A stretch of 38,775 bases of DNA from a virus: IMG/VR virus record IMGVR_UViG_3300025051_000007, positions 1-38,775 of that record. One strand, written 5' to 3'. The notes beneath the pieces are model-generated. The model was not told the DNA's origin. It did no database searches and was given only the letters and a program-made list of their open reading frames with translations. Positions 26,350-33,850 of this stretch are shown here, in pieces. A program made the position numbers and the translations under genes. Position 1 is the stretch's first letter. The number at the start of each line of letters is the position of its first letter.

Positions 26350-26368
26350 CCACGGGCTTGTCCCGTGG
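26350..26368 (-). repeat. Hairpin element family, copy 1
   Basis: A perfect 7-bp stem, CCACGGG-CTTGT-CCCGTGG as read on the plus strand. It lies 37 bp after the stop of the 92-aa gene and 22 bp before the start of the acetyltransferase ORF, just upstream of its ribosome binding site. Confidence 0.85.
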
Positions 26369-29612: not shown

Positions 29613-30224
29613 TCATGCCAGTCGATACCAAGCACCGATGCGGCCGGCGAACATGGCGCGAGGCCATTCGGTAATGACACCGTTCTGCCTCATAGCCCGC
29701 CACAGTGCATCTTGTACATCCGGCCACGGCTGGTACTCCGGCACGGTCCGGAAGTCGTGCAGCACGAGGATCCCGCCGGGCTGCACCAGCCGCATAGCCT
29801 GGCGGATATCCGCGTCAACCGCCGGGCTGCAATGGTCGCCGTCCAGGAACACCAGCTTGGCAGACCTGTCCGACAGCGTCGGCAACACCAGCTCGCTCAG
29901 TCCGGGCGCTACCGTCACGCCAGGCCGGAACGGCTCCAGGTACCGGTGCAGGTGCGCGGTCACGTCATCGCCCAACTGCGCCGTGGGCTTCGGCTCGCTC
30001 GCGTCCAGCATCCACTGGACTACGGGCCCGCCGCAATCGATCGTCGTCACGTGCCCCCCTGCCGTCAGGAGTACGGTCGACTTCCCGAACAGCGCCCCAA
30101 CCTCCACAATGTCACCCGGATGGCTCCGGACCTCCAGGGCCAGCGCCAACAGCGCCGCCATCTCGATCTGCGACAGACACCCGGGTATCGTCTCCGCCAG
30201 TGCCAGCAGTTCACTCGGTCGCAT
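29613..30224 (-). CDS. Class I SAM-dependent methyltransferase
   Basis: A 203-aa protein. Motif I is IVEVGALFGKSTVLL (E-V-G-x-x-x-G-x-S), followed by VTTIDCGGP (acidic residue for the ribose), and later SAKLVFLDGDHC with the D-G-D-H that marks the class I enzymes close to Methyltransf_24, then GGILVLHDF. The target is not shown by the sequence; members modify sugars, peptides and small molecules. I use ATG 30224, which begins MRPSELLALAETIPG; it overlaps the end of the radical-SAM/glycosyltransferase gene by 14 bases, so both are probably translated together and act in one modification pathway. The upstream in-frame extension (to 30302) is Arg-rich antisense-like sequence. Confidence 0.8.
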   Translation of the reverse strand: MRPSELLALAETIPGCLSQIEMAALLALALEVRSHPGDIVEVGALFGKSTVLLTAGGHVTTIDCGGPVVQWMLDASEPKPTAQLGDDVTAHLHRYLEPFRPGVTVAPGLSELVLPTLSDRSAKLVFLDGDHCSPAVDADIRQAMRLVQPGGILVLHDFRTVPEYQPWPDVQDALWRAMRQNGVITEWPRAMFAGRIGAWYRLA

Positions 30225-33141
30225 GCGCCACCGCCTTTCCCCACGCCTTGGCCTGTTCCTGCTCCTGCCACACCGTCTTGCCCGCCTCGATGTTCTCGGC
30301 ACGGCGCATGGGGTACCAGTCCGCGGTCTGTCGGCTCTCGTGGCCGATGTGCCAGACCCGGCCCGGCGCGCGTCGCACGTCCAGGCCTGCGAGGCGCGCG
30401 CGCGTCACCAGGTCGCCGTCTTCGCGGCCAAAGCCTTCCATGCGCTCGTCATACCCGCACAGTCGCTTCCAGTTCGCGCCCGTCATGCAGAGCGTACCGC
30501 AGCCCTGCTCCCACGCCTTTGCCGCCTGTATGTCTGCGGCGTCCACGCTCTTCGCCATCATGTAGTATGGCGCCAGCGCCACGTCTCCGGTCAGGGCCCG
30601 GCACTGCCCAACCAGCCGCCCGGCCAGGATGCAGTCGATGTCCGTCTTCAGGATCCGGGCGAAGCCCGCCTCGCATGCCGCACGAATGCCGCGGTTCGAC
30701 ACCCGCGCCGGGCTGTACAGTTCGCCGGCCGCCGGCTGATACTTGACCGTAACCACCCACTCGGGCAGCACGAGCATCTGTGGCTCGTCGGTCACCAGGT
30801 ACAGTTGCGCGTCCACTGCCTCCAGGACCTCACGGGTCCAGCCGACCCAGCGTAACGCCTCACCGTGCAACCGCACCGCGCAGACCACGACCGCAAGCTT
30901 GTCGACCTCGCCAGCACGGCTATTGTCCCCTGCCAAGCCGAAAGGCGATTGAGACACCTCTGCCGCGTGCGTTCTGGTATCCTCCTCCGGAACGTTCTCA
31001 CGCCAGTAGAGTTCGAAGTTTGTCCGTTCGATCGGTTGCCCGGCCCACGTCCACGCCTGGCGCCCGTGCTCGTCCACGCCCATGCCCCAGCCCGACCAGT
31101 CGTCCCGCGTCTCGCGCGAGATCCGCACCATACCCAGCGCGCCCCAGATACCGATCCGCTTCACGCGCCCGAAGCCTGTGTCCTCCTCGCACACCCACCG
31201 CGTACGCCTGGCCCGGCGCGGCGTCAGCACGTACTCGGCCGTGTCGACCCGTACCAGCCGGTAGTATCCGCGCGGGCTGTCCGGGTCCGGGCTCTGCCGG
31301 TGGAACCCGTTGTGGTCGATCCAGCCCAGCAGCGTCCAGCCGCCCTGGATACGGCGCGCTTGCCGTTCCGGGGTCGGCGCGGCGTCCACCCCGCGCCAGT
31401 TCACGCCGATCTGCGTCCCGTGCGCCAGGTGCACGCACCGCACCGGCAGCAGGTACTGTTTCTCGCGGTCCCAGTGCCCTTGGAAATGGTTGTCCACGCC
31501 GCCGGCTGTCCCGAATGCCTCAGAGTACCAGGCTGGGGCCGCCAGTGTCGCCAGCGCCGCGGCGCGAGGATTGAAGAGCTGGAAGTATCCCCACGGCCGC
31601 GCGTTCGTTGCCGGGTCGGTCAGCTTCAGCCGGTCCGACATGCTCCGGTCCTGGCCGTACTCGAGCAGCCACCCGTCCAGGTCCCAGCTATCTTGTGTCC
31701 AGCCGAAAGGCGATTGAGACCGCTCCGCGTAGTACAGCACACCAGGGTTCAGGATCATGCCCCGGATCATGCCACCGCAACCCTCGGGCAAAATGATGTC
31801 CGCGTCCGTGACCAGGATCCACGGCACCTCGCCGCCGTCGCTGCGGTGTCGATCGTAGATCGCCCGGAACCCGTCGTTTAGCATGGCGCCCTTGTTGAAC
31901 TCTGCGCCCCCTTCGTGCCGGCGCGGCGATACCACCAGGTCAGCCCCCAGCGTCGCCACGACCTGCTTGGTTGCCGTGTCCTCCGGTGTCGTGACCACCG
32001 TCACGCGGTCGCACTCCGTCATGGTGTAGAGCAGCGTCCGTTCCAGCGCCGGCGCGTATCCCACGCACACCAGTACCGCTTCCAGGTACCGGACTCGCAT
32101 GCCCGCCGTGACGTCCGTTCCCACGCGGACCGAGTTGTCCCCGGCCGGGAGGTAGCACTCGGCGTCGCTCGTGTTCCTGACGTACTTCGATGCGTCATAC
32201 GTCGTCACGTCAAACACGTCCACCTTGCCCGCCGCCAGCTTGCGGCTGCCCAACTCCTGCAACCGTCGCGCCCAGTCCGGCGACACCAGGTCGTGGTCTG
32301 CGTTCGCCCGCACTCGCGGCACGGCCAGGCAACCGCTGCACAGTTCGCACCACTGGAGCTGTTCTCCGAACTCCGCCGGCCGCCGCCGCCACCATCCCGA
32401 CTCGAGCGGCCAGCCGCCGGGCCCGCCCGTCAGCATGTCCAGGGCCGCGGCCACCTCGCAGAAGAACGCCCCCTTCGGTGTGATCGAGGCGGACCATAGG
32501 TTCTGTATCCAGCACGCGTCCCGCAGCTTGGCGAACTCCGCGTCATCTGCTAAGTTCCGTGCTGAGCCGAAAGGCGATTGAGACAGTTCCTTCCGTGTCA
32601 TCAGCAACGCCTGGTGTTCGCCGGGGTGCTGGTGCGTGTTCACGCACTGGTACCGGAACACGTCCCGGATCACTTCGAAGTGTTCTACGTACCCCGCGCC
32701 CAGCGACGTCCATAACCCGCGCTTCCGCCCCGCCAGGGCCGACCAGTACCGGTTGCGGTACTCGCCGATGTCCCCGATCGGGTCCCCAACTGCTGGCGTG
32801 CCGGGCTGTTTCGTCGGCTTCTCCGCTCCGCGCCGCTTCGGACTCCTGGCGCCGCGAGCGTCAGCGACTGGCGCCACCGCTTCCGGGCGCGCCTGCTCCA
32901 GGTACCGGGCCATCCGCTCAAACTCCGGGTGCAGCGTCGGTTCACCGCCCATGATCCCGACCATGCCCGGGAAGTCCCGCAGACTGTCCACCGCCAGCTT
33001 GAACGTGTCCCAGTCCATCATGAACGGCTTCTTGTGATGCCCCACGAAGCGTGTACAGTTCGCACAGCCGAAAGGCGCTTGAGACGGACACGCGTTGGTG
33101 ATCTCGATCTGGATGATCTGCATTTCTGCCGGTGACTTCAT
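30211..33141 (-). CDS. Radical SAM - glycosyltransferase - glycosyltransferase fusion protein
   Basis: A 976-aa protein with three parts. Residues 1-330: radical SAM domain starting ITNAC...CANC TRFVGHHKKP, with GGEPTLHPEF at about 64-73 and late Cys residues (CWIQN, FFCEVA, WCELCSGC) that could hold an auxiliary cluster. Residues about 345-640: GT-A-like domain with DADIILP (about 446) as the DxD. Residues about 740-976: second GT-A-like domain with TDIDCIL (about 834) and GYDERMEGFGREDGDL, the C-terminal motif of galactosyltransferase-like enzymes. The radical SAM motif is Cys18-x7-Cys26-x2-Cys29 rather than C-x3-C-x2-C because a QAPFG element lies in it. Three more QSPFG copies lie at residues about 186, 474 and 729. 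The ATG overlaps the upstream stop. Substrates unknown. Confidence 0.75.
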   Translation of the reverse strand: MKSPAEMQIIQIEITNACPSQAPFGCANCTRFVGHHKKPFMMDWDTFKLAVDSLRDFPGMVGIMGGEPTLHPEFERMARYLEQARPEAVAPVADARGARSPKRRGAEKPTKQPGTPAVGDPIGDIGEYRNRYWSALAGRKRGLWTSLGAGYVEHFEVIRDVFRYQCVNTHQHPGEHQALLMTRKELSQSPFGSARNLADDAEFAKLRDACWIQNLWSASITPKGAFFCEVAAALDMLTGGPGGWPLESGWWRRRPAEFGEQLQWCELCSGCLAVPRVRANADHDLVSPDWARRLQELGSRKLAAGKVDVFDVTTYDASKYVRNTSDAECYLPAGDNSVRVGTDVTAGMRVRYLEAVLVCVGYAPALERTLLYTMTECDRVTVVTTPEDTATKQVVATLGADLVVSPRRHEGGAEFNKGAMLNDGFRAIYDRHRSDGGEVPWILVTDADIILPEGCGGMIRGMILNPGVLYYAERSQSPFGWTQDSWDLDGWLLEYGQDRSMSDRLKLTDPATNARPWGYFQLFNPRAAALATLAAPAWYSEAFGTAGGVDNHFQGHWDREKQYLLPVRCVHLAHGTQIGVNWRGVDAAPTPERQARRIQGGWTLLGWIDHNGFHRQSPDPDSPRGYYRLVRVDTAEYVLTPRRARRTRWVCEEDTGFGRVKRIGIWGALGMVRISRETRDDWSGWGMGVDEHGRQAWTWAGQPIERTNFELYWRENVPEEDTRTHAAEVSQSPFGLAGDNSRAGEVDKLAVVVCAVRLHGEALRWVGWTREVLEAVDAQLYLVTDEPQMLVLPEWVVTVKYQPAAGELYSPARVSNRGIRAACEAGFARILKTDIDCILAGRLVGQCRALTGDVALAPYYMMAKSVDAADIQAAKAWEQGCGTLCMTGANWKRLCGYDERMEGFGREDGDLVTRARLAGLDVRRAPGRVWHIGHESRQTADWYPMRRAENIEAGKTVWQEQEQAKAWGKAVAHATE
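30936..30955 (+). repeat. QSPFG element, copy 1
   Basis: AGCCGAAAGGCGATTGAGAC on the plus strand: GCC-GAAA-GGC mini-hairpin plus a CRISPR-repeat-like tail. On the minus strand it is read as SQSPFG at about residue 729 of the fusion protein, at the border of the second glycosyltransferase domain. Confidence 0.9.
31701..31720 (+). repeat. QSPFG element, copy 2
   Basis: Identical 20-mer to copy 1; read as SQSPFG at about residue 474 of the fusion protein, inside the first glycosyltransferase domain. Confidence 0.9.
32565..32584 (+). repeat. QSPFG element, copy 3
   Basis: Identical 20-mer to copy 1; read as SQSPFG at about residue 186 of the fusion protein, in the radical SAM region. Confidence 0.9.
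33066..33085 (+). repeat. QSPFG element, copy 4 (variant)
   Basis: One base differs from copy 1 (GGCGCTTG instead of GGCGATTG), giving QAPFG at residues 19-25 of the fusion protein, between the first and second Cys of the radical SAM motif. Confidence 0.88.
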
Positions 33142-33383
33142 GCGTTCTGTCCTTTCGATACCAGTTGTTTCAGCAGGTTCCGGACCTCGCAGGTGACGGC
33201 AAACTGTTGCCGCACCGTCGGGTCACGGCGGCCAGCAGGCCACAGCGGCTCGGCCTCCAGGCACGCGCTCACCACGGCCCGCACGTCGACCCGGAGCCCG
33301 ATCTGCCGCGCCTCAACACGCCGGCGTCGCGCCGCCTCAATTCCCAGCGTCCGCCCCGCCAGTGTCAGTTCCGGTTGTCGCAT
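33138..33383 (-). CDS. Small basic phage protein (81 aa)
   Basis: An 81-aa, Arg-rich protein (MRQPELTLAGRTLGIEAARR...) with a helical C-terminal half (FAVTCEVRNLLKQLVSKGQ). I recognise no family. It is supported by coupling on both sides: its start at 33383 overlaps the nuclease gene by 19 bases and its TGA overlaps the ATG of the radical-SAM fusion gene (ATGA). It may be a small DNA- or RNA-binding protein, but composition alone does not show it. Confidence 0.5.
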   Translation of the reverse strand: MRQPELTLAGRTLGIEAARRRRVEARQIGLRVDVRAVVSACLEAEPLWPAGRRDPTVRQQFAVTCEVRNLLKQLVSKGQNA

Positions 33384-33850
33384 TTCCGCCTCCCGCAGCT
33401 CAGGTCCTGTGACTTTGCGATTGTCGCCAGAAACTCTTCATAGCTCCAGCACACCGCGCACCGCCAGCCATTCCGCTCCAAGGCCTCAAGCCGCCGCATC
33501 TGGGCATCTGTGAGCCGGCCGCCGGGGACCTTCAGCTCGATGGCCCACGGAACGCCCCAGCGCTTGCGCCCGGGCTTTGCGGTGGTACCGTCCTGGCAGC
33601 CGAAAGGCGATTGAAACGCAAAGACCAGGTCCGGCCACCCAGCCTTCTCCCGTGCGTGCGGCGACAGGTGCAGGTACTCAATCCCGTTCCGGCGCAACCA
33701 CGTTTCACACTGCCCCTGCAACGTCCGCTCTCTACGGGCCACGCCGGCCGCGTGGCGTTCTTCCGGGCTGCACAGGCCGCAGGCCTTGCGGTCCTCCTTC
33801 GACATGCACCGCGCCAGACTGTCCGGGATGATTGCCATTCTGACCGACAT
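33365..33850 (-). CDS. VRR-NUC-type nuclease
   Basis: A 161-aa protein. It has REKAGWPDLVFAF and later WAIELKVPGGRLTDAQ, the catalytic pattern of VRR-NUC (PD-(D/E)xK) nucleases: G-x-P/W-P-D, then [IA]-E-x-K, then G-x-x-[ST]-x-x-Q. The N-terminal part has a Cys-rich segment (CMSKEDRKACGLCSPEE), perhaps a zinc site, and a helical linker. Phage VRR-NUC proteins are often in replication modules and may act on branched DNA. The fifth QSPFG element lies between the two catalytic motifs (FQSPFGCQDG), in what should be a surface loop. The start at 33850 overlaps the stop of the 79-aa gene by one base (TGATG). Confidence 0.82.
   Translation of the reverse strand: MSVRMAIIPDSLARCMSKEDRKACGLCSPEERHAAGVARRERTLQGQCETWLRRNGIEYLHLSPHAREKAGWPDLVFAFQSPFGCQDGTTAKPGRKRWGVPWAIELKVPGGRLTDAQMRRLEALERNGWRCAVCWSYEEFLATIAKSQDLSCGRRKCDNRN
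33598..33617 (+). repeat. QSPFG element, copy 5
   Basis: One base differs from copy 1, so the tail reads GATTGAAAC, the exact ending common to many CRISPR repeats. Read as FQSPFG inside the VRR-NUC gene, in the same codon phase as the four copies in the fusion gene. Confidence 0.88.

Follow-up and report, generated by a model that had tools for sequence, protein, structure and literature searches.

Solitary antisense copies of a type III-B CRISPR repeat end within phage genes as candidate RNA anti-CRISPRs

The virus contig IMGVR_UViG_3300025051_000007, which has terminase, connector and capsid genes and which we analyzed over its full 38,775 nt (the window), carries five solitary copies of a 20-mer, AGCCGAAAGGCGATTGARAC, that equals the end of bacterial CRISPR repeats and lies antisense within two phage genes. 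Judging from the sequence, we consider it probable (about 0.6) that these are compact genes, one per copy, for antisense RNAs that mimic a type III-B repeat and would serve as RNA anti-CRISPRs of the Racr kind.

Results

Five solitary copies in two phage genes

The 20-mer occurs at 30936, 31701, 32565, 33066 and 33598, always on the plus strand and with 0 to 1 mismatch, against an expectation of 0.01 copies from shuffling. Copy 1 (30936–30955, +) is exact and antisense to its gene, which reads SQSPFG on the minus strand. Copies 2 (31701–31720, +) and 3 (32565–32584, +) match the 20-mer as well; copy 4 (33066–33085, +), GCGCTTGAGAC, has one mismatch, an A to C change that yields SQAPFG, and copy 5 (33598–33617, +) is a variant ending in GAAAC. 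Copies 1 to 4 lie in a gene at 30211–33141 (−) for a 976-aa protein, a radical-SAM N-terminal domain fused to glycosyltransferase-like domains as assigned from its Cys motif, its homologues and Glyco_transf_7C, and copy 5 lies in a VRR-NUC nuclease gene (33365–33850, −; Pfam VRR_NUC). The Q phase is kept in all five. A sequence-only reading had described five copies of one orientation within 2.7 kb, in a QSPFG or QAPFG phase and in two genes, and apart from the base now corrected in copy 4 this description stands. It had also held that the copies form no array, which agrees with their spacing: they are solitary and 501 to 864 bp apart, where an array has at least two repeats with spacers of 30 to 45 nt.

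All five copies are intragenic and so fall outside the intergenic search of SRUFinder; intergenic placement is a search filter of that paper and not a functional requirement. Two separately assembled contigs (L005 and L010) contain the same DNA at 99.99 to 100% with identical copies, and an assembly error is therefore unlikely. Among INPHARED phages we found no homologue of either gene, and no match to the 976-aa protein among the solved structures searched. Viral contigs hold 64 relatives of its radical-SAM part. At residues about 88 to 111 (the VADARGARSPKRRGAEKPTKQPG region) the protein has an extra insertion of ~24 residues that occurs only in this phage and is not a copy of the core.

The 20-mer equals the invariant end of type III-B repeats

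Scanning a collection of 84,980 species for the 19-mer returned 27 stretches, most of them true arrays with a period of about 70 to 80 bp, in Lentisphaeria, Kiritimatiellae, other Verrucomicrobiota, Planctomycetota and a few other bacteria. The 19 distinct array repeats (35–37 nt) differ from one another in their first 15 to 17 nt and are identical in their last 20 nt. The phage 20-mer is exactly this invariant part, at 20/20 identity to all 19, and not the full repeat. As seen in the arrays L012, L013, L035 and L292, for example, the invariance extends across phyla, and some of the variable starts form a small hairpin of their own. The three arrays whose surroundings we examined (in genomes G008, G123 and G024) adjoin type III-B Cmr operons, with Cas10/Cmr2, Cmr3, Cmr4 and Cmr1 next to the G008 array; other arrays of the repeat family have Cas6, Csx1 or Cas1 nearby. 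The suggestion, made from the letters alone, that the 20-mer resembles the end of type I or III repeats is thus borne out, with type III-B beside the arrays examined. Rfam gave no relevant match. We interpret the core as a Cas6-type hairpin, GCC-GAAA-GGC, followed by an 8-nt crRNA tag, AUUGAGAC, which appears to be common to the type III-B repeats of the likely hosts.

We sampled 388 genomes from the phylum and 198 from the class; in these the 20-mer occurs only in arrays, with the exception of one copy (L036) that adjoins a phage-type primase and is probably part of a mobile element. Homologues of the 976-aa protein and a second hairpin family shared with G008 make Lentisphaeria the likely hosts. 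The link between phage and Cmr runs through these two features and repeat identity.

Solitary copies elsewhere share orientation and reading phase

Solitary copies were found at 12 sites in five viruses and one mobile element: beyond the five in the window phage, there are three in L159, one each in L160 (virus G004), L163 and L164, and the L036 copy. Phage structural genes were confirmed in L159 and in L162/L163, and L164 has a phage-type primase match only. A relaxed-pattern search of viruses added one real copy (L159 18782), its other matches being chance-like. Every one of the 12 runs antisense to the genes around it. Two, L164 and L159 18782, are noncoding and directly follow a stop codon; the 10 coding copies all use one phase and read SQSPFG, FQSPFG or SQAPFG ([SF]Q[SA]PFG), as against 11 of 69 near-miss sequences in viral contigs, a redundant set. 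The phase effect that had been put at about 1 in 81 was accordingly understated. All 20 bases of the core are nearly perfectly kept, codon third positions and the last T included, in surroundings that vary.

A likely though unproven reason for the strict Q phase is that SQSPFG is loop-friendly. The −10 box upstream (see below) often creates a stop codon in one of the two other frames; the third stays open, so these stops explain the phase only in part.

The copies are inserts

Nine homologues of the 976-aa protein from the class Lentisphaeria, the six closest at 51 to 55% identity, lack copies 3 and 4. The insertion of copy 4 converts the radical-SAM CxxxCxxC motif into CPSQAPFGCANC, and at copy 3 RKEL gains 10 residues relative to the nine homologues and to a sister phage. 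This sister phage, G004, has a counterpart of the whole 30211–33141 gene with none of the window's inserts: at the copy 4 site it reads CPHGCSNC where the window phage reads CP-SQAPF-GCANC, and copy 2, a net gain of 6 aa in the window phage, is absent from it and from one homologue. Copy 5, which follows GWPDLVFA, has no counterpart in the sister phage, whose gene reads on. G004 has an insert of its own in another gene, and the window's orthologue is without it. In L159, DnaG gained 17 residues in a loop.

In the insert cases compared, the native gene sequence continues without a break as far as the tag end of the core and the other side is ragged, with net insertion lengths of 12, 18, 30, about 51 and 54 nt. 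These comparisons show that the solitary copies are inserts. Insertion of a full repeat was considered and rejected, since the 5′ halves next to the viral copies are unlike host repeat 5′ halves overall; only L160 and L163 showed resemblance, at p about 0.01.

Promoter-like motifs precede most copies

Most copies are preceded, on the repeat-sense strand, by a −35/−10-like pair with a predicted +1 within about 3 nt of the core. Such pairs, all on the plus strand, lie before copy 1 (30899–30926: TTGTCG at 30899–30904, 16 nt, TATTGT at 30921–30926; weak by strict consensus), copy 3 (32528–32556: TTGGCG at 32528–32533, 17 nt, TAAGTT at 32551–32556), copy 4 (33032–33059: TTGTGA at 33032–33037, 16 nt, TACAGT at 33054–33059) and copy 5 (33564–33591: TTGCGC at 33564–33569, 16 nt, TACCGT at 33586–33591). 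Copy 2 has a −10-like TATCTT (31689–31694, +) with no clear −35. Taking the first A of the core as +1, the −10-like hexamer occupies −12 to −7 at copies 2, 4 and 5, L159 (TATGTT) and L160 (TATTCT), and sits up to 3 nt further upstream at copies 1 and 3, L164 (TATAAT) and L036 (TATATT). Six copies have a TTG-type −35 at 16 to 17 nt before the −10, namely L160 (TTGACT), L159 (TTGAAT) and copies 1, 3, 4 and 5. No clear promoter precedes L163 or L159 18782.

Compared with 1000 random positions per copy, the Fisher-combined p was 1e-12 for the −10, 1e-5 for the −35 and 7e-15 for both. Synonymous-codon shuffles that held the protein fixed gave p 4e-8 for the eight coding copies whose promoter side is itself coding. 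The PWM and search range were set after the pattern had been seen, and these p values are consequently somewhat optimistic, supportive rather than definitive. A scan with a strict promoter consensus found none; the motifs are significant as a set and weak singly.

Discussion

A predicted antisense RNA that mimics a type III-B repeat

The arrangement suggests that the 20-nt core is fused to a promoter of the sigma-70 type that reads opposite to the phage gene, and that transcription would begin no more than about 3 nt from the core. By analogy with the published Racrs (PMC10651486), the transcript would most simply act as a decoy that occupies host Cas6 and Cmr proteins. Promoter, Cas6-type hairpin and 8-nt tag together would have the layout of a crRNA gene that lacks a second repeat. 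Type III crRNAs require only the 5′ cut by Cas6, and their 3′ ends are trimmed. If Cas6 cuts the phage transcript and the product is loaded, the resulting crRNA would carry the tag and, as its guide, a sequence complementary to the mRNA of the phage itself. With array spacers averaging 38.7 nt and the type III crRNA layout, we predict 38-nt guides on the plus strand after each core: 30956–30993 for copy 1, antisense to its gene, and 31721–31758, 32585–32622, 33086–33123 and 33618–33655 for copies 2 to 5. The phage mRNA carries the complementary anti-tag GUCUCAAU beside this target, so that it would be read as self and Cas10 should stay silent. Antisense placement would also spare the phage mRNA from Cas6, to which a sense orientation would expose it, and this may explain why the orientation is so strict. 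In folding predictions for 60-nt transcripts of copies 1 and 3, L160 and L163, other folds compete with the core hairpin.

The earlier suggestion that the copies yield RNA decoys for a host CRISPR complex is strengthened by the identity to host repeats, the type III-B Cmr neighbors and the promoter-like motifs; transcription, Cas6 cleavage, loading and inhibition are predictions from these features. Racrs and solitary repeat units are single mimics of CRISPR repeats in phages whose hosts have the matching CRISPR type, are expressed from their own promoter and act as small noncoding RNAs (PMC10651486). The copies described here are likewise single repeat mimics that match likely hosts, with promoter-like motifs that are weak one by one and a predicted small noncoding RNA. 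The present copies differ in being intragenic and antisense, in comprising only the invariant 3′ 20 nt, in numbering five in one phage and in their match to type III-B. The published search masked ORFs and covered intergenic regions only, and an intragenic antisense class would thus be missed; SRUs of all types except VI were reported, and the phrase "type III" never appears in the main text (PMC10651486). Good sequence evidence leads us to regard the copies as a putative variant of RNA anti-CRISPR-like repeat mimics, placed inside genes, antisense, and directed against type III-B. If the copies are functional, RNA anti-CRISPRs that lie antisense within genes form an entire class that has escaped notice, in this case one directed at type III-B, a system that phages escape poorly by point mutation. 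They would also illustrate how a phage with densely packed genes conceals such RNAs within them, the tag/anti-tag rule making antisense placement safe, and both their start sites and their guides are precisely predicted.

Alternative explanations

Some phages encode mini-CRISPR arrays, a few repeats that use host Cas proteins and are possibly aimed at related phages. The copies described here lack both a second repeat and a foreign spacer; their guide would be the phage's own gene read backwards. They could be scattered guide genes: host Cas6 would cut their transcripts into working crRNAs directed at related phages in which the same gene is free of the insert, and the anti-tag would spare the phage's own mRNA. 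Such cassettes, antisense in their own genes and with phage genes as spacers, would turn the host Cmr on relatives without a cassette, a form of superinfection exclusion. The uninterrupted native sequence up to the tag junction means that a guide equals the relative's target: G004 matches the copy 4 guide at 36/40 and the copy 5 guide at 34/40, without the anti-tag, and its own guide matches the window at 34/40. A single 5′ Cas6 cut would suffice, and with five different guides in one phage and three in another the copies look like an array that has been dispersed. However, the sister phage offers nothing that corresponds to copy 1, the matches still include a few mismatches, and within their genes the guide regions stand out only weakly by conservation (individual p 0.037, 0.19, 0.25, 0.99, 0.24 and 0.037). 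Because this conservation test is weak, we consider both the guide-gene reading and its superinfection-exclusion form unlikely. Targeting of conserved motifs was rejected, since no clear excess of conservation marks the guide regions.

Tag/anti-tag discrimination of self from nonself is familiar as host self-protection and from engineered targets; here, a phage mRNA carries the full anti-tag beside a potential target. The open-access literature searched contained no natural phage case of anti-tag escape. Passive escape of this kind would mean that each insert arose by recombination with a host array and set the anti-tag beside a protospacer, so that the host's type III machinery mistakes the phage mRNA for self. 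It accommodates the constant presence of the anti-repeat in the mRNA, the boundary exactly at the repeat-spacer junction, and the ragged opposite side with its varied net insertions. The promoter pattern and the silent-site conservation speak against it: it leaves unexplained both the promoter-like motifs and the strict conservation of the remaining 12 nt at silent positions. Copies within one phage also share no repeat 5′ half, and 272 spacers from arrays in the collection match none of these phages above chance, the true host probably lying outside the collection. We regard passive escape as improbable.

That the phage mRNA is an anti-repeat sponge, which pairs with pre-crRNA repeats and blocks their processing by Cas6, is very improbable: the mRNA does offer several perfect or near-perfect 20-nt complements of the host-invariant repeat part, but ready-made Cmr complexes would be unaffected and the antisense promoter-like motifs would go unexplained.

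Rickettsia palindromic elements are short in-frame coding inserts in unrelated genes, and a mobile insert of that kind with no link to CRISPR function, to which the sequence-only reading had given equal standing with the decoy, would fit the single reading frame in different genes and the presence of another dispersed hairpin family in the same phage, but it is disfavored and very unlikely, for the boundary coincides with the CRISPR repeat end and the sampled host genomes, apart from one mobile element, have the sequence in arrays only. The inserts also differ from those elements in being far shorter, in deriving from CRISPR repeats and in their restriction to viruses and one mobile element. 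The search of CRISPR repeats and candidate host genomes that the sequence-only reading had proposed returned, for the genomes sampled, array repeats rather than the many dispersed genic copies of a general coding insert.

A second dispersed hairpin

A second hairpin, CCACGGGCTTGNCCCGTGG, occurs in the window in seven copies, all on the plus strand, at 26350, 29594, 34375, 36213, 36689, 37513 and 38042. The sister phage G004 has two copies as well, and the Lentisphaerae genome G008 has about 20. The copy that aligns between the two phages is intergenic and lies just after a stop codon. On a G008 contig (C432:48844–76265), the same CCACGGG hairpin forms loose clusters with a spacing of 60 to 100 bp, which may constitute a separate family, array-like or intergenic.
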